From the NCBI RefSeq assembly GCF_017876775.1, contig NZ_JAGIOP010000002.1, positions 2,046,001 to 2,110,000 on the forward strand: a stretch of 64,000 bases of DNA, given 5' to 3'. Shown here one piece after another: positions 1,168 to 19,098 of the stretch (positions within the stretch are counted from its first letter, which is position 1; each line of letters starts with the position of its first letter). Below the pieces are notes generated by a model that saw only the letters and a program-made list of their open reading frames with translations, was not told the origin of the DNA and made no database searches. The position numbers and the translations under genes are program-made. The stretch is from Mycolicibacterium lutetiense (GTDB lineage: Bacteria; Actinomycetota; Actinomycetes; Mycobacteriales; Mycobacteriaceae).

Positions 1168-1607
1168 CCGCCGAGTTTCCCGGCGAGTTCAGGGCACTCG
1201 TACTTCAACGCCACGTTCACGATCGTCATGAGCGCATCGGGTGGGAGTTTGCTGCCCATCCTGGTCAGCACGTCGACGACATCCTGCCTGGTCTTGTTGA
1301 AGCTGCCGCCGGCCATGATGCAGGCCATCATCAGCTGATCCCCGATGGCATTGTCGGAACCCTGGATGCCGGCGGCGCGGACCTCGGCGAACGCTTGCGG
1401 CGACAACCCCGCCGAACCGCGCGGCGACCCGGCGGGTGGTTTGGGGCTGCGTGTGGCAGTTCGGTTGGGCGCCTTGGACGCCGTCGTGAACGGTGTGACG
1501 TCATCGGGGGCGGTGGCCACCCCGGTGGTCGTGGTGCTGCAGGCCGCCATCAACACGACAGCGACGGCGCCGAACGCCGCACCCACCCGTTTGGCATTCA
1601 TCGGCAC
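1164..1607 (-). CDS. DUF732-like secreted lipoprotein
   Basis: The product is 147 aa. It has a lipoprotein signal peptide: positively charged MNAKR, a hydrophobic stretch of about 15 residues, then lipobox LMAAC with the lipidated Cys near residue 22. A Thr/Ser/Pro-rich linker follows. The C-terminal half (after about residue 65) holds two Cys residues (MMACIMAGG and KYECPEL) that could form a disulfide, as in the small DUF732-type mycobacterial exported domains. ATG codons at residues 1 and 3 are both possible starts. The function is unknown. It is transcribed alone and ends convergently with the short ORF upstream. Confidence 0.7.
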   Translation of the reverse strand: MPMNAKRVGAAFGAVAVVLMAACSTTTTGVATAPDDVTPFTTASKAPNRTATRSPKPPAGSPRGSAGLSPQAFAEVRAAGIQGSDNAIGDQLMMACIMAGGSFNKTRQDVVDVLTRMGSKLPPDALMTIVNVALKYECPELAGKLGG

Positions 1608-1653
1608 TTCCCTCCACTTCGTTCAACGGTAGTGGGGTGCCCAGAAACCGGCC

Positions 1654-2157
1654 TCAGAAATCACCGGAGTGTCGGCGCAGGGTCTCGATGGACGCGACCA
1701 GGGCTCGCGACTGCTCCTCCGACATCCCGACGTCGGCGAACACCTGCTCGTTCAGGGTCACCGTGGCATCCTCGACCGTCGAACGCCCGAGCTTCGTGAT
1801 CTGCACCAGCGTGGTGCGCCCATCGGTGGGATGTGGGATGCGCTCCACCAGCCCACTGGCTTCCAGGCGCCGGATGGCGTGCGTGACGCTGGTGACATGT
1901 ACCTGGAGGCGATCGGAGGCCTTCGTGATCGGCAGTGCACCGGCCCGGCTGAAGGCCAGTAGCCGCAGCAACTCGAACCGCGAGAAGCTCAGATCGTAAG
2001 GTCGCAGCGCGGACTCCACCCGGGCCAGCAGAATCTGATGGGCGCGCATCACCGACGTCACCGCGACCATGCCATCGGCCACCTCGCCCCAACCGGCGGC
2101 CTCCCAGTTCGCCCGGGCCTGCGCGATGGGGTCACGTTTGTCCGGTGGCGAGGGCAC
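1654..2157 (-). CDS. MarR-family transcriptional regulator
   Basis: The product is 167 aa with the MarR winged-helix layout. An N-terminal dimerisation helix (about 25-55) comes first, then the recognition helix region (ITKASDRLQVHVTSVTHAIRRLEASGLV, about 85-112), then the wing with the family signature HPTDGRTTLVQIT. It lies 48 bp after the aminotransferase gene on the same strand and may be the last gene of that operon. M. tuberculosis also has a regulator gene (Rv0737) just beyond sigL-rslA. This one may correspond to it, with the biosynthetic operon inserted between; that is inference. The ligand is unknown. Confidence 0.88.
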   Translation of the reverse strand: MPSPPDKRDPIAQARANWEAAGWGEVADGMVAVTSVMRAHQILLARVESALRPYDLSFSRFELLRLLAFSRAGALPITKASDRLQVHVTSVTHAIRRLEASGLVERIPHPTDGRTTLVQITKLGRSTVEDATVTLNEQVFADVGMSEEQSRALVASIETLRRHSGDF

Positions 2158-2205
2158 GCCTCTTCTTACCGCATCACGGCGCGGCGCCGCGCAGCGATGC
2201 GCGGT

Positions 2206-3237
2206 TCAGGCCGCCGCCGTCACCGCGCTCAGCACTGCCCGGGTGGATTGCCGCGCCCCGATGGTGATCCGCACTCCGCCGTCGGTGTAGTAGCGGAGCT
2301 GAAGGCCGGTCCCATCGAACACCTCCGGCCACGGTGAGGACCCGGCCGGGAGGTACAGGAAGTTGGCCTGCCCATCTGTGCTGTAGACGCCCAGCGCCCG
2401 CAACCGCATCTGCAGGTAGCGCCGCTCCGCTGCGATCATCCGGATACGTTGGCGCAGTTGATTTTCTGCATCGTACGAAGCAGCCACGGCCACCTGGGCA
2501 CTGAGCCCGATTCCGAACGGCAGCTGCATCCGCCACAGCTGACGGCCGAGGTCCGGGGCGCAGAACCCGTAGCCGATCCGCAGGCCGGCCAGGCCGTACG
2601 CCTTCGAAAAGGTGCGCACCACGACGACATTGCCGAACCGGGCCACCAGGCTCGGCCCGTCGATGCACTGTTCGGCGGCCAAGAACTCCACATATGCCTC
2701 GTCGAGGAGCACGACGGTGTCCTCGGGCAACCGGGTCAGGAACCGCTCGATCTCGATGACCGATTCGATGGTGCCCGTCGGGTTGTGCGGCCGGCAGACC
2801 GCCACCACCCTCGCGGTCTTCGCAGCCTCGGCCATCGCGTCGAGATCGTGCCGGCCGTGTTCGTCGAGCGGCACGGTGACCGTCCGCAACCGCGCCATCT
2901 GCGCGAAGATCGGATATCCGTCGAATGTGGGCTCCGCCATCACCATGGTGTCGCCGGGACTGGTCACCGCATGCAGCACCTGCATGATGACCCCGGTGGC
3001 GCCGGCACCGACGATCACCTGTTCCTCGGCCATTCCGTCGTGATCGGCGATCAGCGAGCGCAACCGCTGGGGCAGGAACTCCGGATACCGGTTGGCAGCC
3101 TCATCGCACGCCCGTAGGGCCGAGCGCACCGCGGGCAGCGGCGGAAAAGGACATTCGTTGAGCGACAACGCGAACGGGTTGACCGCCTGCGGCAGCGCGC
3201 CGACAGCGTCGAGCAGGGCGGTCCGGGGAGCCACCAT
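2206..3237 (-). CDS. PLP-dependent aminotransferase, HisC-like (fold type I)
   Basis: The product is 343 aa when started at the ATG at 3237. That ATG overlaps the upstream stop codon (TGATG), which implies translational coupling; an in-frame start at 3270 is less likely. PLP-binding residues typical of class II/HisC-like enzymes are visible: N152-P-T-G, D179 and Y182, S211-K212 (Schiff-base Lys) and R220. The enzyme should transfer an amino group between an amino acid and a keto compound. Genomic context argues against histidine biosynthesis, because its partners are a ThDP enzyme, a KAS III-like enzyme and an SRPBCC protein. It probably aminates or deaminates an intermediate of that pathway. 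The substrate is unknown. Confidence 0.85.
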   Translation of the reverse strand: MVAPRTALLDAVGALPQAVNPFALSLNECPFPPLPAVRSALRACDEAANRYPEFLPQRLRSLIADHDGMAEEQVIVGAGATGVIMQVLHAVTSPGDTMVMAEPTFDGYPIFAQMARLRTVTVPLDEHGRHDLDAMAEAAKTARVVAVCRPHNPTGTIESVIEIERFLTRLPEDTVVLLDEAYVEFLAAEQCIDGPSLVARFGNVVVVRTFSKAYGLAGLRIGYGFCAPDLGRQLWRMQLPFGIGLSAQVAVAASYDAENQLRQRIRMIAAERRYLQMRLRALGVYSTDGQANFLYLPAGSSPWPEVFDGTGLQLRYYTDGGVRITIGARQSTRAVLSAVTAAA

Positions 3238-4274
3238 CACACGTTCCCCGAGTCGCCGCGGCCACCCCACCGGACCGCGGCGGCCCCGGCGAAGTCACCG
3301 GCGTGGGCGAAGGCGGCCATCAGCACGATGTCGCCGGCCTTCACCCGCCCGTCGGTGACGGCACGGTCGAGGTTGACGGGAATGCCTGCGGCGAAAAGGT
3401 TTCCGCATTCGTCAAAGGTGTCCACGTGACGTTCGGACGGCAACTCCAACGCCTCACGCCAGTTGCGCAGGAACACGCGGTTGGGCTGATTCGTCACGAA
3501 CAGGTCGATATCCTTGGGCTGCACACCGATCCGGTCGCAGACGGAATAGGACACCTCGGGAACCTGCCGATTGCCCCGGGCCAGCACCTTGGTGATCTTG
3601 CTCTCGGTGAAGCCGATGCAGGCCTCCCCCGGGCCGGCCTGCCACCACTTGCGCGGCGGGTCCATGACGACGGTCATATCCCCGGCGTACTCCCCGTAGG
3701 TACGGCATTCGATGTCCAGGATGGGAGACTCGTCCGACAACGTCACCAGGCCGACCGCGGCCCCGTCTCCGGGCACCGCCGACTGCGCCTTGCGCCGGAT
3801 GGTCTGCTGATCGAAGACCTGGCCGGCCGAATTCTGGGCGATCGCGATCACCGCGGTGCGGCCCTCTCCCGCGCTCAACAGGGTGCGGGCCACCTTGAGC
3901 CCGAGCACGAATGCCGCGCACCCACCGTTGTGCAGGTCGATCACCCAGTTGGGTTTCATCCCCAGCCGGTGCGCCATGCCGCCGCCGCCACCGTAGAACG
4001 GCATGTCGGGCAGCTGGGTGTGGGTGATCAGCACATCGGCCTCGGTGATGACGTCGGCACCGTGCCGTTCGATCACCCCGGCCGCGGCCCGCTCGACCAT
4101 GTCGATCGCGGTCTCTTCGGGCCCGACGTGATGACGGAACCGCGGCGCCCGGAACATCACGTTCTCGGCCAGCTCGTCGGTTTCGGCGAACCCGGCGTAG
4201 TAGTCGGCGCTGATCGGGTCACCCGGAAGGTAGGTGGACAGGTCGATGAGGCTGACGGGGTTGTTCTCGGACAT
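3237..4274 (-). CDS. KAS III (FabH)-like thiolase-fold enzyme with His-to-Asn change in the triad
   Basis: The product is 345 aa. The thiolase-fold nucleophile is C119 in NGGCAAF. The Asn of the triad is kept (N292 in ECGNLFA). The usual catalytic His of the HQAN motif is replaced: the aligned segment reads FVTNQPNRV, putting N262 at the His position. KAS III enzymes use Cys-His-Asn to condense acyl-CoA with malonyl-ACP. Loss of His suggests a non-decarboxylating acyl transfer or altered condensation. It starts 9 bp after the SRPBCC gene and overlaps the aminotransferase start. The distance from FabH consensus and the operon context argue against a role in primary fatty-acid synthesis. Confidence 0.85.
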   Translation of the reverse strand: MSENNPVSLIDLSTYLPGDPISADYYAGFAETDELAENVMFRAPRFRHHVGPEETAIDMVERAAAGVIERHGADVITEADVLITHTQLPDMPFYGGGGGMAHRLGMKPNWVIDLHNGGCAAFVLGLKVARTLLSAGEGRTAVIAIAQNSAGQVFDQQTIRRKAQSAVPGDGAAVGLVTLSDESPILDIECRTYGEYAGDMTVVMDPPRKWWQAGPGEACIGFTESKITKVLARGNRQVPEVSYSVCDRIGVQPKDIDLFVTNQPNRVFLRNWREALELPSERHVDTFDECGNLFAAGIPVNLDRAVTDGRVKAGDIVLMAAFAHAGDFAGAAAVRWGGRGDSGNV

Positions 4275-4283
4275 GTACGGCTC

Positions 4284-4964
4284 TCACTTCATCCAGGCCG
4301 GGGTGACCGACAGACCGTTGCGGTGCCGGTATTCGGCGATTGCCTTGAGGTTTCGCAATTCCAGCAGGTGGCCGGGACCGAACATGTCCCAGAAATCCCC
4401 CACCCAGACCGGTCGCGCCGGGGGCGCGGTCTCCGGGTAGGGGTTCTCGTCGTAGAACGGATGGTGGCAATTCGTCCACAGCACAACCGATCCCGGCTTG
4501 TCGAACACCACCTGCGCGTCGACGATCCGCATCAGGTAGATCATCCAGAGGTGCTTGCCCTGGTCCCAGGCGCAGTGGTAGTCCACGGTCAGCGCGTCGC
4601 GGTTGGCCACCGTACGGGTGTAGATCGTGCTTCCCGGACCCGACGGCCCGGCGCCGAGCCGGTCATGGGCCAGCCACAGCCCGGGCTCCTCGGTCTGGGT
4701 GAAACCACGCAGGCTGTAGGTCCATTCCTCCAGGCAGCGGGTGTCGGACAGGTAGTCGAACAGCTCGTCGGGTGGGCACTCGATGTAGTCGTTGACCGTG
4801 CAGTACTGACCGAACACCTGGTCGTGCGGGTAGACCGACCGCATCATGTCCATGATGATCGGGGTGGCCTGCTCCTTGGGCGAGGTCTCGATCCGGATGA
4901 GTCCGTCCATCGGGGTACGGGTACCCCGATGGGCCGTGATGTCTTCAAGCGCGGGCAGTGACAT
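4284..4964 (-). CDS. SRPBCC / polyketide cyclase-like protein
   Basis: The product is 226 aa. The chosen ATG at 4964 has a strong Shine-Dalgarno (GAGGAGA) inside the end of the preceding ThDP-enzyme gene, giving a 20-bp overlap. A longer open frame upstream is only read-through of that gene in another frame. The central part fits an SRPBCC (START-like) helix-grip fold: an early helix with ECPPDELFDYLSD and a W near LEEWTYSLRG, followed by alternating beta strands. Such proteins bind hydrophobic ligands or act as cyclases/aromatases. The tail is Trp/Pro rich. Its position between the ThDP and KAS III-like enzymes suggests it acts on their shared intermediate. The function is unproven. Confidence 0.75.
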   Translation of the reverse strand: MSLPALEDITAHRGTRTPMDGLIRIETSPKEQATPIIMDMMRSVYPHDQVFGQYCTVNDYIECPPDELFDYLSDTRCLEEWTYSLRGFTQTEEPGLWLAHDRLGAGPSGPGSTIYTRTVANRDALTVDYHCAWDQGKHLWMIYLMRIVDAQVVFDKPGSVVLWTNCHHPFYDENPYPETAPPARPVWVGDFWDMFGPGHLLELRNLKAIAEYRHRNGLSVTPAWMK

Positions 4965-6702
4965 GGGACCTGTTCTCCTCTGTATCGGAAGGGGCGCTGT
5001 CTGTGGTGGCGAGAAATGCCGCGAACGGCGGGATTTCGTCGGCCGAACATTCGATGCTGAGCACCGATGGTCCGTCGCTGTCCAGGGCCATGCCCAGCGC
5101 CTGCGACAGTTGCCGGACGTCGGTGACGTCGTAGGCCGGCAGGCCGGGGAACATCGCGGCCAGTCCGGCACCCAGTCGGCTGGGTCCGAACCTGTTGTAG
5201 GAGTAGCGATCCTCGTAGAACAGCTGCTCGCGGGTGACACACATGGCGTGAGCGTGATTGTCGAACAGTACGAAGGTGATCGGCAGCCGGTACTGCACCG
5301 CGGTGTGAATCTCCATGCCGTGCATGAAAAATGATCCGTCGCCTGCGATCACCACGGTGCGCCGGGCAGGACCGGCGGTGGCTGCATCAGAGGCCCGGTG
5401 AAACGTCATCCCGATCCCGGCACCGAAGCTGTAGCCCATGCCACCCATTCCGAGCGCCACCATGAAGCGTCCGTCACGCCGGGCGGGCAGGTAGTGGATC
5501 GCCGAGGCCCCCACGTTGCCGGCGTCGACGACGATGTCGGTTCCGTCGGTCAGTGCCGCGTCGAGCACCGACATCGCGTCGCGGTACCGGATACCCGGAC
5601 CGTGATGTGCCGGTGGCCGCAGTTCGGTGCGCGGCACCAGATCCGGCACTCGCACCTGGACCGGCCGACCTGGTCCGGACAGCGCCCGGGCCAGGTATGT
5701 CAGCGACCGGCGCAGGTCGTCGGAGTGGGCGTGGGTGCAGGCCGGGAACGGCACCTGCGAGCCGATCGAATAGGTCGCCACCTTGCCCAGCACGTCGTCG
5801 AGACCGGTCCGCGCGGTCACCGTCATGCGGGTGCCCACCAGCAGGCACATCGCGCTCTGAGCTGCGGCAATGGAAACCCCGGGGTGGCCCATCACACCGG
5901 CTACCCCCAAGGCGGAGGATGAGCCGAATCCCGGGATTCCCGCGACGTCTTTGGCATCGGGCACCGTGGCCACGCGCGCCCGCAGCGTGGCGCGAAGCCG
6001 CTCCAGTTCGGCGCGGGCGTCGTCGCGGGCCACCTGCTCGCCGGCAATGATCGTGATCGTGCCATCGGCGCGGCGCAACGCCTGCTCGAGTCCGGCGAGA
6101 TCGGACTGGCGGCCCCCGGACCCGTTCCCCCCGGGCCGCCCGTTGCCACTGCCATCGTCTGTACCGGCCTCCACCAGCTCTGCCTGCTGAATATTCTTGG
6201 GCAGCAACAACACCGCGGGTCCACCGGTGCGTGCGGCGGCCAGCGCATCCGGAAGTGCGGTGCGGATGTCTTCGGGCTTCAGTATCCTGCGGCAGTACAC
6301 CGAGACCGCCGAGAAAAGGGCGTGCGCGTCCAGGCTCCCGTTGTCCCCACTGGTGTCCTGGAAGGCGCCGCGGCCGTCGAGTGTCATCGGCGCCTGGCCG
6401 ATCAGGGCCAGCACCGGAACGCGGCTGGCCAGCGATTCGGCCAGGCCGGGCACGGTGTTGAGGCAGCCGCCGCCGGAGGTCGCCGCCACCACGCCGATCC
6501 CGGCGCCGCTGCGACTATAGCCGTCCGCCATTGTGGCAGCGGAGAATTCGTGTTTCGCCAGCACCGCGGCGATGTCGTCACGGAAGTACGCCGCGTCGTA
6601 GACGTCCTCAATGTTGGCACCGTCCACGCCGAAGATGTGCGAGATCCCATTCGCGGCCAGATAGCCGACGATGTGGTCCACCACCCTGTGCGCCTTGACC
6701 AT
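4945..6702 (-). CDS. ThDP-dependent enzyme, acetolactate synthase/decarboxylase-like
   Basis: The product is 585 aa with the three-domain ThDP layout. The PYR domain has catalytic Glu E52 in KHEFSAATMADGYSR. The central domain (about 200-350) is preceded by a Gly-rich linker near 183-197. The PP domain has the metal/ThDP motif GDGSFFMHG (454-462) ending at N482. Enzymes of this family decarboxylate 2-keto acids and release an aldehyde or ligate it to a second carbonyl. The partners here are not ilvN/ilvC, so branched-chain amino acid synthesis is unlikely. It is the first gene of a four-gene operon whose promoter looks SigL-dependent. The start ATG has AGGTG five bases upstream. Confidence 0.88.
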   Translation of the reverse strand: MVKAHRVVDHIVGYLAANGISHIFGVDGANIEDVYDAAYFRDDIAAVLAKHEFSAATMADGYSRSGAGIGVVAATSGGGCLNTVPGLAESLASRVPVLALIGQAPMTLDGRGAFQDTSGDNGSLDAHALFSAVSVYCRRILKPEDIRTALPDALAAARTGGPAVLLLPKNIQQAELVEAGTDDGSGNGRPGGNGSGGRQSDLAGLEQALRRADGTITIIAGEQVARDDARAELERLRATLRARVATVPDAKDVAGIPGFGSSSALGVAGVMGHPGVSIAAAQSAMCLLVGTRMTVTARTGLDDVLGKVATYSIGSQVPFPACTHAHSDDLRRSLTYLARALSGPGRPVQVRVPDLVPRTELRPPAHHGPGIRYRDAMSVLDAALTDGTDIVVDAGNVGASAIHYLPARRDGRFMVALGMGGMGYSFGAGIGMTFHRASDAATAGPARRTVVIAGDGSFFMHGMEIHTAVQYRLPITFVLFDNHAHAMCVTREQLFYEDRYSYNRFGPSRLGAGLAAMFPGLPAYDVTDVRQLSQALGMALDSDGPSVLSIECSADEIPPFAAFLATTDSAPSDTEENRSHVTARA

Positions 6703-6730
6703 GTGTCACCTACTTCCGTGCTCTGCCAGT

Positions 6731-6758
6731 GACACGACCCGTAGGCGGCGGCGGTTCA
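6731..6758 (-). promoter_or_regulatory. Candidate SigL promoter of the ThDP/KAS III operon
   Basis: Read on the minus strand, TGAACC (6758-6753), 16 bp, then CGTGTC (6736-6731). This matches the published mycobacterial SigL consensus as I recall it (TGAACC, 16-17 bp, CGTgtc). It ends 29 bp before the start codon of the ThDP enzyme, leaving a short leader with its own ribosome binding site. The sigL gene itself lies 2 kb away and carries the same box. Confidence 0.7.
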
Positions 6759-6760
6759 CC

Positions 6761-6782
6761 GTTGGGACGGATTCGTCCGAAC
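6761..6782. promoter_or_regulatory. 22-bp near-perfect palindrome in the divergent promoter region
   Basis: GTTGGGACG, GATT, CGTCCGAAC: nine-base arms with one mismatch around a 4-bp centre. It lies just upstream of the SigL-type -35 box, between the divergent operon and the methyltransferase. The size and position fit an operator for a dimeric regulator such as the MarR protein encoded at the end of the operon. The assignment to a regulator is inference. Confidence 0.45.
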
Positions 6783-6906
6783 TCCTGGCAATACCGCAGG
6801 AAATGCTCAGGACACCATCAAGATCAGCCGGAACCGAGGGGGATAGTGGAGGACGGGGGGTCGTTGTTACCGGAGACCGCAGGAACCCCGTGATCGGAGG
6901 CATCGG

Positions 6907-7566
6907 ATGACACAGCCGGGTATCGATTGGGAAGACGCCTATCGTCAGGAAACCCCACCGCCGTGGAGCATCGGCGCCCCGCAACCCGAGCTTGCGCGAC
7001 TGATCGAGCAGGGCAAGGTGCACGGCGAGGTTCTCGACTCCGGGTGCGGCCATGCCGCACTCTCGCTGGCGCTGGCCGAGCAGGGCTTCACCGTGGTCGG
7101 GCTGGATGCCAGCCCGACGGCGATCGCAGCAGCGGCAGCCACCGCAGCCGAACGTGGTTTGACCGCAGCAAGTTTCGCGCAAGCCGACATGACTGCCTTC
7201 ACCGGTTACGACGGCAGGTTCAACACCGTGCTCGACAGCGGCCTGCTGCACGCGCTGCCGATCGACAGACGCCAGGCCTATATCCAGGCCATCCACCGCG
7301 CCTCGGCACCGGATGCACGGCTGTACATCCTGGCCTTTGCGACAAGGCCCTTCGGCGAGGACGCTCCGGGCCCCAACGGCTTCACCGCCGACGAGTTGCG
7401 CGACACCGTCGCCACCCGTTGGACCGTGGACGAGGTACGCCCGGCCAAGCTGTACGGCAACGACGGTCCGGCAGGCGGGCCGGCATCAGCGCCGGGCGTC
7501 GAGCGCGACGGTGCCGGCCACATCACGATGTCCGGCTTCCTGCTGACCGCACACAAAGGCGGCTGA
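6907..7566 (+). CDS. Class I SAM-dependent methyltransferase
   Basis: The product is 219 aa. Motif I is VLDSGCGHAALSLALAEQG (about 42-60), with the acidic residue that binds SAM ribose in GLDASPTAI. Motif II lies near QADMTAF. The overall pattern (WEDAYRQETPPPWSIGAPQPEL at the N-terminus) is that of small-molecule or thiol methyltransferases of the TPMT/TehB-like group. It is divergent from the ThDP operon and shares its 204-bp intergenic region, so it may add a methyl group in the same pathway. It ends 11 bp before the convergent rslA. The substrate is unknown. Confidence 0.85.
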   Translation: MTQPGIDWEDAYRQETPPPWSIGAPQPELARLIEQGKVHGEVLDSGCGHAALSLALAEQGFTVVGLDASPTAIAAAAATAAERGLTAASFAQADMTAFTGYDGRFNTVLDSGLLHALPIDRRQAYIQAIHRASAPDARLYILAFATRPFGEDAPGPNGFTADELRDTVATRWTVDEVRPAKLYGNDGPAGGPASAPGVERDGAGHITMSGFLLTAHKGG

Positions 7567-7577
7567 CGTGGCGGGGC

Positions 7578-8312
7578 TCAGAGCTGCTTCTCGAGCAGCA
7601 CTTTGCCCTGGGGGGACGTAACCAGTTGCACCGCAGCGATATCCGCCATCGGCATCTGGGTGTTGCCGCTGGGCAGCGCGGTGGCGCCGGACAACCCGAT
7701 CCACGTCGCGATCTCGTCGCGGCTGCCGTCCCGGCCCACCACCACCATGCCGAGGTTCTGCGGAGGCGCGTCCTGCTTGCCCCAGCTCCCGTAACTGCAG
7801 GCCATGTCGATGCGGGTACCCCAGGAGTAACTGGACATCCCAATACTGGCGTTGATGGGTGTATCAGAGACCTTGTTCATCGCCATCATCTGCGCGCTCT
7901 GCTGCTCGGAGCCGCCGTGTAGGCCGAACACCGCAGGACGAACGCCGACCACCACCCCCAGCGCCAGCAGGGCGGCGGCCACGCCCACGGCGGCCGTGGT
8001 CACCCAGCGCGAACGGCGCCGACCCCAGCTGACCTTGGCCAGCACCGACTGCAATACCTCGGGCGGCAGCGGCGGATCGGGCTGTTCGGATTCGAGGGCA
8101 AGCGCATCATCGAGCTCGAGCATCGCCAGCAGGGCGGGCATGCCGGTCAGCTCGGACACCGCGGAACGGCACTGTGCACAGCCCTCCAGATGCGCCTCGT
8201 ACTCGCGTCGCTCGCTACTCTCCAGCGAACCCAGCACATAGGCCGCATCCCAGGTCCGGTACTTGTCGAGCGCCACTGGATCAGGAGTGTGGGGCCCACC
8301 GAACTGCGTCAT
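7578..8312 (-). CDS. rslA: Anti-sigma-L factor RslA
   Basis: The product is 244 aa. The N-terminal cytoplasmic anti-sigma domain has the zinc-binding H41-x3-C45-x2-C48 motif (HLEGCAQC) of ZAS proteins. A single membrane helix spans about 103-124, and the remainder is an extracytoplasmic domain of the RskA_C type. It starts with ATGA overlapping the sigL stop, so the two are translationally coupled. In M. tuberculosis RslA binds zinc and releases SigL on oxidation; the same is expected here because both Cys ligands are present. The gene order sigL-rslA next to map-adk-secY matches M. tuberculosis. Confidence 0.88.
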   Translation of the reverse strand: MTQFGGPHTPDPVALDKYRTWDAAYVLGSLESSERREYEAHLEGCAQCRSAVSELTGMPALLAMLELDDALALESEQPDPPLPPEVLQSVLAKVSWGRRRSRWVTTAAVGVAAALLALGVVVGVRPAVFGLHGGSEQQSAQMMAMNKVSDTPINASIGMSSYSWGTRIDMACSYGSWGKQDAPPQNLGMVVVGRDGSRDEIATWIGLSGATALPSGNTQMPMADIAAVQLVTSPQGKVLLEKQL

Positions 8313-8836
8313 CGTGTCACCCCCATTTCCTGCAAGTTCAATCTCAGCGCGCGGACCGCGTAGTGCAGCCGTGATTTCACGGTGCCCTCGGGTATCTGCA
8401 GATCGTCGGCGATCTGCCCGGTGGTCCAGCCCTGGTAGTACGCCCGGCGGACCACTGCTCGGTGTTCGTCGGAAAGCTGGCTCAGTGCCGTGCTCAACAG
8501 GATTCGATCCAACGCGTTATCCACTTGGTCGGGGGTGGTGGCAGCCTTTGAATAGTCTGCGACCTGTTCGGGGTCGGGCACCCCGGTTTCGTTCCGAAAG
8601 CGGGCACTCCGACGTTCATCAATGATCATGTTTCGCGCCACGGTAAACAACCACGCCCGCGCTGAACGGTCGGTATCGGCGGTGACATCAGGGTGACGCC
8701 ACGCACGAAGCAGCGTTTCCTGCACCACGTCCTCGGCCCGGGCCCGGTCACCCGTGAGTCGCAGGGCGTAGCACCACAGCGCGGCGGCATGCTCGTCGTA
8801 GAGCACCCGCATCATGGCGGCCTCCGGATCATCCAC
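8309..8836 (-). CDS. sigL: ECF RNA polymerase sigma factor SigL
   Basis: The product is 175 aa, typical for an ECF sigma. Region 2 (about 14-85) contains the -10 recognition helix near RAEDVVQETLLRAWRHP. Region 4 (about 115-170) has the HTH TTGQIADDLQIPEGTVKSRLHYAVRAL, which reads the -35 element. It is coupled to rslA by a 4-bp overlap and preceded by its own SigL-like promoter, implying autoregulation. The position next to map, adk and secY is as in M. tuberculosis (Rv0735). There, SigL controls genes for lipid/polyketide synthesis and exported thiol-redox proteins. Confidence 0.88.
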   Translation of the reverse strand: MDDPEAAMMRVLYDEHAAALWCYALRLTGDRARAEDVVQETLLRAWRHPDVTADTDRSARAWLFTVARNMIIDERRSARFRNETGVPDPEQVADYSKAATTPDQVDNALDRILLSTALSQLSDEHRAVVRRAYYQGWTTGQIADDLQIPEGTVKSRLHYAVRALRLNLQEMGVTR

Positions 8837-8853
8837 TTCCCACCTCCGTCTGT

Positions 8854-8881
8854 GATACGACGTTGGAGGCGATCCGGTTCA
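8854..8881 (-). promoter_or_regulatory. Candidate autoregulated SigL promoter of sigL-rslA
   Basis: Minus-strand TGAACC (8881-8876), 16 bp, then CGTATC (8859-8854). The sigL ATG is at 8836, which leaves a short leader containing a GGAGGT ribosome binding site. The box agrees with the recalled SigL consensus except for A instead of G in the -10. It shares spacing with the box at 6731-6758. Confidence 0.7.
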
Positions 8882-8950
8882 ATTACTACCTTTGCGCGCG
8901 GGCTGACGCCAGCGATGACACGCGATTCGAATAGTGATTGCTGGCGTTAA

Positions 8951-9748
8951 TTACTGCGTGAGGATTCGGGGCCCGTCGTCGGTGACCGCGACGGTGTGCT
9001 CCCAGTGCGCCGCACGGGTCCCGTCGGCGGTGACGACGGTCCACTCGTCGTCGAGAATCTTGGTCTCGGTGGTGCCCAGGGTCAGCATGGGTTCGATCGC
9101 CAGTACCGAGCCCGGCTCCAGGTACGGACCGCGACCGGGCGAGCCCTCGTTGGGCAGGAACGGGTCCATGTGCATCTGGCGGCCGATACCGTGGCCGCCG
9201 TAGCCGTCGACGATGCCGTACTTGCGGTCGTGGCGGGCCTCGGCGGCGTGGGTCTCGACCTCGATCGCGTGCGAGACGTCGGTGAGACGATTTCCGGGCA
9301 GCATCGCGGCGATGCCGGCCTCCATGGCCGATTTGGTTGCCGCAGAAAGGGCTTCGTCCGCGGCGATGAGCGTGCCGACCCCGAAGGTGACGGCCGAGTC
9401 GCCGTGCCATCCGTCGACGATCGCTCCGCAGTCGATGGACACCAGGTCGCCGGCGGCCAGCACTTCGCCGGCCGACGGAATGCCATGCACCACACGGTCA
9501 TTGACCGACGCGCAGATGCTGGCCGGGAATCCGTGGTAGCCGAGGAATGACGGGGTGCCGCCACCGTCACGGATGACGGCTTCGGCGATCTGATCCAGCT
9601 CCAAGGTGGACACGCCCGGCGTCGCGGCAGCACGCACGGCCCGCAGCGCCGAGGCGACGAGCGCCCCGGCCACCGCCATCGCGTCCAATTCTCCGGCGCT
9701 GCGCTGCGCGACGATCTTGCGCTTCCGCAACCCCGGCAAGCTGATCAC
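8951..9748 (-). CDS. map: Methionine aminopeptidase, type I
   Basis: The product is 265 aa and removes the N-terminal Met from nascent proteins. The five metal ligands of the pita-bread fold are visible: Asp in SIDCGA, Asp in HGDSAVTF, His in [12 protein letters not shown], Glu in LAIEPML and Glu in HWEHTVAV. No N-terminal SH3-binding extension is present, so it is the short MapA-like form. It overlaps the adk stop by 4 bp (ATGA) in the secY-adk-map operon. A 115-bp gap separates it from sigL. Confidence 0.95.
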
Positions 9749-17238: not shown

Positions 17239-19023
17239 TCAGAACCGGTGCTCCCCCAGCCAAAGCGCATTCGCGCCGGTCACGGTGCGTTCGGCCTGAT
17301 CAAGGATCGACAGCACCGACTGGCCGAGCAGACCGCCCACTGCCTGCGGCAACGAAGCCGCTGCCGGTTGCGAGGAAGGCTTGGGTCGCAACATGTCCAG
17401 CCAGGACGAGCCCGGATAGTTCAGCACCCGCACCTTGGTGTCGGGATCCAGCCCGGCCAGGACCTTGGCCCGGGTGATTGCGGTACGGAGTCCACCGAGT
17501 TCGTCGACGAGGCCGCGGTCCAAGGCATCGGCACCCGTCCAGATCCGTCCGCGCGCCACCGCGTCCACCTGTTCGACCGTGAGTTTGCGCCCCTCGGCCA
17601 CCCGTGAAATGAAATCGGTGTAGAACAGGTCGGTCTCGGCTTCGATGTGGGCGTGCTGTTCATCGGTGAACGGTGCGTTCGACGACCAGGCATCGGCATT
17701 GGGGTTGGTACGCAAGGAATCCGATCCGACTCCCAACTTGTCCTTGAGTTCGCGTGAGATCAACTTGCCGGTGATCACCCCGATGGATCCGGTGAGGGTG
17801 CCGGAGTTGGCCACGATCTCGTCTGCGGCCATCGACACGTAGTAGCCGCCCGAGGCGGCCACCGCACCCATCGAGGCAACGATGGGCTTGCCGCGCTCGC
17901 GGATGCGAACCACTTCGCGCCAAATGGTTTCCGATCCGGTCACCGAGCCGCCGGGGCTGTCTACGCGCAGCACGATCGCCGACACCTCATCGTCAGCGGC
18001 GGCCTCACGCAGCGCCGCGGCAATGGTGTCGCCGCCGGCACTGGAATTACCCAGCGGCAGCACCTGTGGCCCGCCACGGCCGCTGACGATCGAGCCGTGC
18101 AGCGTCACCACCGCAACCGTCGGCTTGGATTTGCGGCCCGGTATCGGTGGTGCAGGAACCTTCGGGGTGGTCCGCGCATAGCGCGAAAGATAAAGCCGCG
18201 GTAGGGCATCAGGGTGGGTGTCGGCATCGGCGTCCGGCCCGGCCGGCCCGCCGGACAGTTCCCCGATGCGTGAATACGCCTGGTCACGAAACCCGATACG
18301 GTCGATCAGACCGGCGGTGACGGCGTCGTCTCGGAGCACCGGCGCCGTGTCGGCCAGTGCGTCGACCGCCTCGACGGTCAGGCTTCGGGATTCGGCGATG
18401 GCCTGCCAGACCTGCGATTGCAGGCTTTCGATCATCCGACCGTCGGCCTCACGTTGCGCATCGGTGTATCGGTCCTCGGTGAAAACGTTTGCTGCAGACT
18501 TGTATTCACCACGCGCGACAAACTGCGCCTCGATACCTGCCTTGTCGAGCGCGTCGCGCAGGAACATCGCGTTGGTGGCGAAACCGACCAGCCCGACCGT
18601 GCCCGACGGCTGCATCCACACTTCACGGAAGGCCGATGCCAGGTAGTAGGACAGCGTGCCGGGGTAAGTCTCGGCCCAGGCCACCGTCGGCTTGACATCG
18701 CTGAACGCCGCGATGGCGTCACGCAGTTCCTGTACCGGGCCGGGCGCGGCGGCGGGCAACTGCACCCGCGCGATCAGCCCGGCCACCCGGTCGTCTTCGG
18801 CGGCCCGGTAGATCGCCGCGACGGCTTGGCGCAACACCAGCGGGCGGCCGCCCCCGGCGATCATCGCCAGCGGATCGAACCCGGCGGTCTCCGGCGGTAG
18901 CGAGGTCAGATCCAACTCCAGCACACACCCGCTGGGAACGCCGTTGTGCCGGGCGGTGTCAACGCGCCGGGCCAATGCCTTGAGATCGTCCTGGCCGGGA
19001 AGCCCGGGGAGAAAGGCGAACAT
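17239..19023 (-). CDS. sppA: Signal peptide peptidase SppA, 67-kDa type
   Basis: The product is 594 aa, a tandem-domain (67K) form of the serine protease that degrades leftover signal peptides at the membrane. The catalytic Lys is in the N-terminal half (GEYKSAANVFTEDRYT). The nucleophilic Ser is in the C-terminal half (GAVAASGGYYVSMAADEIVA). No strong N-terminal membrane anchor is visible (MFAFLPGLPGQDD). It lies beside the rplO end of the spc operon, as Rv0724 does in M. tuberculosis. It diverges from the LLM oxidoreductase gene with a gap of only 75 bp. Confidence 0.92.
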   Translation of the reverse strand: MFAFLPGLPGQDDLKALARRVDTARHNGVPSGCVLELDLTSLPPETAGFDPLAMIAGGGRPLVLRQAVAAIYRAAEDDRVAGLIARVQLPAAAPGPVQELRDAIAAFSDVKPTVAWAETYPGTLSYYLASAFREVWMQPSGTVGLVGFATNAMFLRDALDKAGIEAQFVARGEYKSAANVFTEDRYTDAQREADGRMIESLQSQVWQAIAESRSLTVEAVDALADTAPVLRDDAVTAGLIDRIGFRDQAYSRIGELSGGPAGPDADADTHPDALPRLYLSRYARTTPKVPAPPIPGRKSKPTVAVVTLHGSIVSGRGGPQVLPLGNSSAGGDTIAAALREAAADDEVSAIVLRVDSPGGSVTGSETIWREVVRIRERGKPIVASMGAVAASGGYYVSMAADEIVANSGTLTGSIGVITGKLISRELKDKLGVGSDSLRTNPNADAWSSNAPFTDEQHAHIEAETDLFYTDFISRVAEGRKLTVEQVDAVARGRIWTGADALDRGLVDELGGLRTAITRAKVLAGLDPDTKVRVLNYPGSSWLDMLRPKPSSQPAAASLPQAVGGLLGQSVLSILDQAERTVTGANALWLGEHRF

Positions 19024-19098
19024 GAACCGAGCCTACCGATCCACGGATCCTTCGCGCGTCGACGAGAAGTCGACGCCTACCGGGCGCGCGGTCGTACC

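Follow-up and report, generated by a model that had tools for sequence, protein, structure and literature searches.

A stretch of 64,000 nucleotides from Mycolicibacterium lutetiense (NCBI RefSeq assembly GCF_017876775.1, contig NZ_JAGIOP010000002.1, positions 2,046,001 to 2,110,000 of the forward strand; hereafter, the window) carries the genes for the extracytoplasmic function (ECF) sigma factor SigL and its anti-sigma factor RslA and, next to them, an operon of four genes (6702-2206, minus strand) that begins with a thiamine diphosphate (ThDP)-dependent enzyme. It is quite probable that SigL directly drives transcription of this operon from a promoter box at 6758-6731, after its redox-dependent release from RslA, and that the operon encodes a carbazole-type pathway. 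SigL very likely controls the operon. A pathway of the type of CqsB2, the carquinostatin carbazole synthase, is likely from the enzymes predicted, and the carbazole identity of the product and its antioxidant purpose are a good proposal by analogy. SigL-related control has already been suggested in print; what is added here is the promoter, its conservation, and the pathway. Published work is cited for the parts of each paper that were covered.

SigL-type boxes of the window

The elements on which the regulatory argument rests are the following:
6758-6731, minus strand: SigL-type promoter of the operon, TGAACC-N16-CGTGTC
8881-8854, minus strand: SigL-type promoter of sigL-rslA, TGAACC-N16-CGTATC
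8309..8836, minus strand: sigL, ECF sigma factor with a GTG start; Sigma70_r2 and Sigma70_r4 domains, matches to SigL structures
7578..8312, minus strand: rslA, anti-sigma factor; match to 3hug chain B, zinc motif HLEGCAQC

Both boxes lie exactly where an earlier reading made from the letters of the window (the sequence-only reading) had placed them, on the minus strand and with an equal N16 spacing, and the 29 bp that it gave between the operon box and the first gene are those measured from the end of the box, TGAACCGCCGCCGCCTACGGGTCGTGTC, to the ATG of the ThDP gene. That reading had named four TGAACC hexamers and found two of them to lack a -10 element. The window contains 34 such hexamers, and only the operon box and the sigL box match TGAACC-N15..18-CGTNNC; a correction is needed for the hexamer given at 19024, which starts at 19023. 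The number of matches in the window is near chance (0.82 expected; at least two in 19 of 100 shuffles). This count alone is weak. The case for the boxes rests on their position and conservation, and the window-only count was excluded from the evidence together with the loose genome-wide pattern described below. A scan for sigma-70 promoters and terminators over 1500-9000 gave no promoter-like and three terminator-like sites, not above the level of shuffles.

The measured -10 consensus of M. tuberculosis SigL is T G N C/A A G, preceded by CG (PMC6372665). The operon -10, CGTGTCAC, fits it, agreeing at -12, -11, -9 and -8, that is, at four of the five specified positions. Two differences speak against the proposed promoters: the operon box has C where the consensus has G, at -7, and the sigL box of the window differs at -11 as well, with A where SigL prefers G.

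Conservation of the box within the genus

Two sets of loci were used within the genus. The first comprises the 80 best of 387 loci, and in 75 of them TGAACN-N16-CGT occurs within 400 bp of the ThDP start. The box is present in all 74 loci with RslA or SigL upstream, and in only one of the six loci without them (L085, about 350 bp upstream and with CGTCAC, not picked up with a 350-bp limit and probably there by chance). The same pattern precedes sigL in 66/66 scorable loci of this set (L025, whose contig begins inside sigL, was left out).

The second set consists of 198 evenly drawn genomes of the same genus, with 141 full-length ThDP rows from 127 genomes among the matches listed. G130 was set aside because of a contig break, and the fragment rows (G059, G118 C12 and C166, G089, G091, and G176 C2) were not scored. 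A copy was called linked if sigL lies less than 20 kb upstream on the same contig and strand (farthest, 18,995 bp), and 14 rows were moved to this class at a second SigL check. Among the matches listed, TGAACN-N16-CGT precedes the ThDP gene in 104/105 linked copies versus 4/35 unlinked ones (Fisher p=1.4e-25, the samples not being independent), and the exact form TGAACC-N16-CGTNNC in 65/105 versus 2/35. The sole linked miss, G022, reads CGAACC-N16-CGTGTC by eye, with one mismatch and the spacing unchanged.

The spacing is also specific. Before the 105 linked copies, other spacers occur far less often (N14, 0; N15, 1; N17, 0; N18, 3; N13, 17; N25, 8), and the N16 form was found in 106 of 10,500 Markov-resampled windows. 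Two positions that the search did not specify vary little in the 104 boxes: base 6 of the -35 is C in 78 and T in 26, with nothing else, and the base following CGT is G in 97, in agreement with the M. tuberculosis SigL -10 consensus.

Two reservations weigh against these counts. Unlinked copies with a box exist in G042, G165 (two copies) and G041, and in other genera in L276 and L285. Moreover, the genomes share descent, so that the counts are not independent events; the 198-genome set also overlaps the 80-locus set, and therefore the two are not separate samples, the set from other genera being a separate one.

As all counts come from related genomes, the box might also be conserved merely through joint inheritance of sigL and the operon, without being used. 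We consider this most improbable. Both hexamers and their spacing are kept while the spacer and the flanks diverge, and the box stays with the operon despite several kb, an ABC transporter gene or a methyltransferase gene between rslA and the ThDP gene. It is kept even when sigL is divergent (L286), and the apparent orthologous operon responds together with the SigL regulon (PMC2806251).

Alternatively, the box may serve ECF sigma factors in general and be recognized chiefly by another of them (SigM, SigE or SigH), the operon then not being SigL-specific. In its favor, the binding sites of SigL, SigE and SigH are similar (PMC4821874), and four genomes in which no SigL match reached E<=1e-20, namely G012, G171, G182 and G041 (the latter 89% complete), keep the ThDP gene. 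However, the box is absent in G012, G171 and G182 and present in the sigL-linked copies, with G041, which has a box at -99, as the exception. In addition, sigL carries the same box, and in a published array the expression of the operon changes along with that of known SigL targets (PMC2806251). A general ECF promoter is very unlikely, and we retain SigL as the sigma factor that reads the box.

Several loci show further features of box and gene arrangement. In 20 of the 80 loci (including L041, L044, L057, L061, L064 and L086) the -10 ends only 6-7 bp ahead of the apparent ATG, so that the mRNA would be leaderless. Two contigs (L043/L051 and L056/L058) carry two operon copies about 12.5 kb apart, each with a SigL-type box. 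Extra SigL-type boxes lie between sigL and the ThDP gene in L043, L057, L063, L080, L082 and L084; the extra box is about 30 bp (L084) or 160 bp (L080) before the gene of a FAD-dependent oxidoreductase (Pfam), a possible tailoring enzyme. A second ThDP-cyclase-KAS III cluster (KAS III, beta-ketoacyl-acyl carrier protein synthase III) is found in L047, L049, L053 and L060 with no SigL or RslA upstream, and a box within 400 bp occurs in none of the four; that of L053 has an AMP-binding enzyme, a flavin monooxygenase and a P450 nearby. In the window itself, a methyltransferase gene (6907-7566, plus strand) lies between rslA and the ThDP gene. An opposite-strand methyltransferase gene occupies the same place in 6/80 loci (L009, L011, L012, L013, L014 and L016), where the box stays with the operon.

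The operon and its box in other genera

The cyclase encoded by the second gene of the operon is present in 82 of 251 genomes of the family, belonging to 15 of 31 genera. From the 65 non-genus genomes with a match, 20 clusters of 13 of the 14 non-genus genera were hand-picked (one to three per genus). SigL and RslA are encoded within the 12.6-kb stretch in eight of them, and in all eight a box precedes the ThDP gene at 31-88 bp. One of these eight, L286, has sigL on the opposite strand, and the box of L288, with CGTACC, was caught by the relaxed pattern only. Among the 12 clusters lacking SigL and RslA in the stretch, a box was found in two (L276, at 45 bp, and L285, at 328 bp). Nocardia farcinica possesses SigL, RslA, the box and the operon together. 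The other named non-mycobacterial records without SigL (L089, L091, L092 and L093) have the box in 0/4 cases. Conservation in orthologous operons, whose lack the sequence-only reading would have taken as a refutation, is therefore found both in the genus (104/105 linked copies) and outside it (8/8).

Genome-wide search for the promoter

The loose pattern put forward by the sequence-only reading gave 72 matches in the whole genome versus 39 in a reversed control, and thus it is not specific alone. Twenty-three of the 72 matches were inspected, in 20 stretches: 12 lie inside frames rich in G+C at third codon positions (GC3), six have no frame start within 200 bp, and five have one (L241, L242, L254, and L259 on both strands). 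A tighter form, TGAACY-N16-CGTRTH, was fitted to the genus box set and has 11 matches in 6.35 Mb versus three in the control. Its matches include sigL, the operon and mpt53; because the consensus was fitted to the genus boxes, the sigL and operon matches are there by construction.

Placement of the 11 tight matches relied on crude gene calls. Six are inside called genes, two (L266 and L269) are in none and have no start below, and three are those of sigL, the operon and mpt53. With these calls, the matches outside genes with a gene start just below are the operon and a 172-aa protein, the sigL gene having been missed by the call. The 172-aa protein matches the solved MPT53 structure (E=3.3e-75) and is followed by a frame for a CcdA-like membrane protein. 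By sequence likeness, this mpt53 orthologue is an independent match in promoter position and a reported SigL target: the operon MAP2940c-2942c, which includes the homologues of mpt53 and Rv2877c, is named among those regulated by SigL in other organisms (PMC2806251). The M. tuberculosis SigL/RslA regulon (sigL-rslA, mpt53-Rv2877c, Rv1139c-Rv1138c and pks10) has the same sigma/anti-sigma pair, and in the genome of the window the mpt53 orthologue has a box.

Published expression of the likely orthologous operon

In Mycobacterium avium subsp. paratuberculosis, gene names and order after rslA in MAP4201-MAP4211 fit the window operon (PMC2806251), and from names, order and place after rslA, MAP4208-4211 are apparently its orthologues. 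M. colombiense L064 is arranged like MAP4201-MAP4211: the region that separates rslA from the ThDP gene encodes a FAD-binding protein, a DUF4389 protein and an ABC transporter. On day 1 with the rhodanine D157070, MAP4208-4211 were up 6.93-, 7.41-, 7.04- and 6.19-fold; in the same array, sigL was up 2.60-fold, rslA 2.50-fold, mpt53 7.43-fold, and MAP2642-2644 9.00-, 7.93- and 4.90-fold (PMC2806251). The authors of that work already proposed SigL-related control of MAP4208-4211. The parts covered of the same paper name MAP4209, at the cyclase position, a transcriptional regulator and contain no promoter, conservation or carbazole link. In the published expression tables, the operon-type genes are named acetolactate synthase, transcriptional regulator, fabH and histidinol-phosphate aminotransferase (PMC2806251, PMC4319475).

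The published data are partly at odds with simple induction by oxidants. In a furA deletion mutant (delta-furA), MAP4208-4211 were down 6.7-10-fold along with MAP2642, a joint fall that speaks for SigL control; katG was unaffected (PMC4319475), so that the decrease of the operon in this mutant is hard to read in redox terms. Besides, sigL (MAP4201), MAP2643 and mpt53 (MAP2942c) are unnamed in the main text of that paper. MAP4211 was down in THP-1 cells, yet MAP4208 was up in acid-nitrosative stress (PMC3416667). A dual RNA-seq study of THP-1 infection reports sigL and mpt53 up, the words acetolactate and fabH being absent from its main text (PMC9469519).

A setting of the operon by the katG level via peroxide was also considered and rejected: katG was down and the operon up in one study (PMC2806251), and katG was unaffected and the operon down in another (PMC4319475). 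Two further reports are of possible relevance. MSMEG_1488 is up with two G-quadruplex ligands in one published list, and a garlic-oil paper places sigL among the less affected sigma genes in the parts covered.

That the SigL/RslA pair controls a local biosynthetic pathway, as the sequence-only reading predicted, is supported by the conservation of the box, by the identity of SigL and RslA, and by the published co-expression of the apparent orthologues. That reading had called the pathway uncharacterised, which no longer applies: its type is now assignable, since the cyclase belongs to the CqsB2 carbazole-synthase family.

Enzymes of the operon and the predicted pathway

The operon consists of four genes:
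4945..6702, minus strand: gene 1, ThDP-dependent enzyme, predicted CqsB3/NzsH role (aryl-pyruvate/pyruvate coupling); TPP_enzyme N, M and C domains
4284..4964, minus strand: gene 2, CqsB2-type cyclase of 226 aa; 6ipv/6ipw; ATG at 4964 read by eye
3237..4274, minus strand: gene 3, KAS III-like enzyme; ACP_syn_III and ACP_syn_III_C; Cys119, Asn262 (usually His) and Asn292
2206..3237, minus strand: gene 4, HisC-like class I/II aminotransferase; Aminotran_1_2, E=3.4e-43; its ATG, placed by eye at 3237, overlaps the stop codon of gene 3

The cyclase has no Pfam or NCBIfam match at E<=0.001 and no PHROGs match. The one PDB sequence matched by it is CqsB2 (6ipv/6ipw, E=3.7e-45), and its start is supported by a 226-aa relative beginning MSLPALED. 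The catalytic residues proposed for CqsB2 are E105, Y144, Y172, H206 and E209 (PMC7466098); in an alignment counted by eye, the window cyclase has Y144, Y172, H206 and E209 identical and D in place of E105. The four identical residues are each kept in 112 of 115 matched loci, the remaining three not being aligned there; the position of E105 is D in 112 loci, E in one, and not aligned in two. The window cyclase is 39.9% identical to the cyclase of Embleya, which in turn matches CqsB2 with E=1.8e-137.

The carquinostatin (cqs) and neocarazostatin (nzs) clusters of Streptomyces share with the operon a cyclase of the CqsB2/NzsI family, a ThDP enzyme, a KAS III-like enzyme and an aminotransferase. 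A scheme of carbazole assembly by CqsB7, CqsB3, CqsB1 and CqsB2 has been published (PMC7466098). The four enzymes of the operon correspond to CqsB7, B3, B1 and B2 by enzyme type, the sequences of CqsB1, B3 and B7 being outside the comparison. In contrast to the Streptomyces clusters, the window operon has no prenyltransferase and is apparently under ECF sigma control. The same three-gene order, ThDP-cyclase-KAS III, is found in Tsukamurella tyrosinosolvens and Rhodococcus opacus, with cyclases 68.8-69.6% identical to that of the window; these trios differ in the promoter, the SigL box being found in none of the four named records without SigL mentioned above. Compared with the window, Tsukamurella has 69.6% identity in the cyclase, 49% in the KAS III and 39% in the ThDP enzyme. 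Antioxidative lipocarbazoles have been reported from Tsukamurella pseudospumae (a title cited in PMC7466098), and the ThDP-cyclase-KAS III trio of Tsukamurella may be linked to them.

Three features weaken the assignment to carbazoles. Among the assigned genes at 1654-6702 there is no acyl carrier protein (ACP) and no second KAS III, unlike in the Streptomyces clusters. The best PDB matches of the ThDP enzyme are BbmA and CsmA, for whose chemistry nothing was found in the literature searched. Finally, the KAS III has Asn262 in place of the active-site His; at this position Asn occurs in 109 of 111 matched loci, His in Embleya L094, and one locus is not aligned. The Tsukamurella KAS III also reads TNQPN. 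Regarding the other two active-site positions, Cys119 is Cys in 111/111 matched loci, and Asn292 is present in 80/111, with 31 not aligned there.

It is accordingly possible, although we would not call it probable, that SigL control is right and the product is not a carbazole, a phenylpyruvate or 4-hydroxyphenylpyruvate start leading to a different arene or to a shunt ketone. The Asn for His in the KAS III favors this option, as do the low identities to the enzymes beside the Embleya CqsB2 orthologue (ThDP enzyme, 34%, E=2e-73; KAS III, 26%) and the aminotransferase, which falls in a broad HisC-like group (its best NCBIfam match, PRK03321, scores under the cut-off). Against it, four of the five CqsB2 catalytic residues are kept and the fifth is a conservative change, and Tsukamurella, a genus with published lipocarbazoles, has the same trio. 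A carbazole-type product is the assignment followed below.

SigL, RslA and the MarR regulator

The sigma factor of the window matches SigL in the PDB (6dv9 chain F, E=7.9e-75; 3hug chain A, from M. tuberculosis, E=2.2e-31), and the anti-sigma factor matches RslA (3hug chain B, E=2.4e-20); 3HUG is the M. tuberculosis SigL/RslA structure (PMC2877774). The zinc motif HxxxCxxC of RslA is present as HLEGCAQC. Its H, C and C residues are kept in 101, 101 and 103 of 105 matched loci, respectively, the remainder not being aligned there. Oxidation frees SigL from M. tuberculosis RslA (PMC2877774), and the redox step proposed for the species of the window is carried over from that protein.

One more gene follows the operon:
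1654..2157, minus strand: MarR regulator, predicted Rv0737 orthologue by position; MarR_2, E=1.5e-9; 48 bp after gene 4

Rv0737/Ms_1492, a MarR protein, binds the sigL-rslA promoter and increases its expression, and the position of the Rv0737 gene differs among species (PMC13002591). If the MarR gene were co-transcribed with the operon, SigL and MarR would reinforce each other in a positive loop. Redox-sensing cysteines have been suggested for Rv0737 homologues (PMC13002591); the MarR of the window has no cysteine.

The reported binding and activation would also suit MarR as the main controller of the operon, SigL acting indirectly. Twenty operon-less genomes, hand-picked from those with sigL and without a ThDP orthologue, bear on this point. 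The MarR orthologue is present in 20/20, and in the 17 with a listed place for sigL it starts 722-889 bp after sigL in every case. Since MarR stays close to sigL even in genomes lacking the operon, its presence is not tied to the latter. Furthermore, binding is reported at sigL-rslA, and none was found for the ThDP promoter in the passages covered (PMC13002591). Control mainly by MarR is therefore very unlikely, and direct control by SigL is preferred.

The gap of 722-889 bp is space for rslA alone (rslA being read from the spacing only), which indicates that, between rslA and MarR, genomes mostly have either the whole operon or none of it; G089 and G091 have ThDP pieces only. Judged by its locus numbers, the M. 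tuberculosis series Rv0735-Rv0736-Rv0737 resembles the arrangement without the operon. According to published tables, M. tuberculosis has no cyclase homologue (MAP4209, NS/blank) and other-locus homologues for the rest (PMC2806251, PMC4319475), and so it appears to be without the carbazole-like pathway.

Proposed mechanism

We infer the start site of the operon, its redox control in this species, and the substrates, product and purpose of the pathway. Under reducing conditions, RslA would hold SigL. Oxidation at the HxxxCxxC zinc site of RslA would release SigL, which would then transcribe sigL-rslA and, from the box at 6758-6731, the operon (6702-2206, minus strand). An aryl-pyruvate, made by the aminotransferase from an aromatic amino acid, would be coupled to pyruvate by the ThDP enzyme and then acylated by the KAS III-like enzyme from a CoA or ACP source, after which the CqsB2-type cyclase would close the aromatic ring. 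The likely product would be a carbazole-type, possibly lipocarbazole-like, redox-active arene that could scavenge oxidants.

Significance for mycobacteria

SigL is known mainly from M. tuberculosis, where its targets are seemingly scattered. We tentatively suggest that SigL/RslA was originally the oxidation switch of a radical-scavenger pathway, in which the adjoining operon makes a carbazole-type arene that feeds back as an antioxidant, and that the tuberculosis lineage kept sigL-rslA-Rv0737 and lost the pathway. A carbazole-type operon as the oldest local SigL target would allow the purpose of the switch to be tested, with oxidant in and antioxidant out. Among the matches listed, the open-licence literature searched links no mycobacterial cluster to a carbazole synthase, and the product would thus represent a mycobacterial metabolite class without description in that literature. 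It would also provide a function for the genes that published expression tables list under the four names given above.

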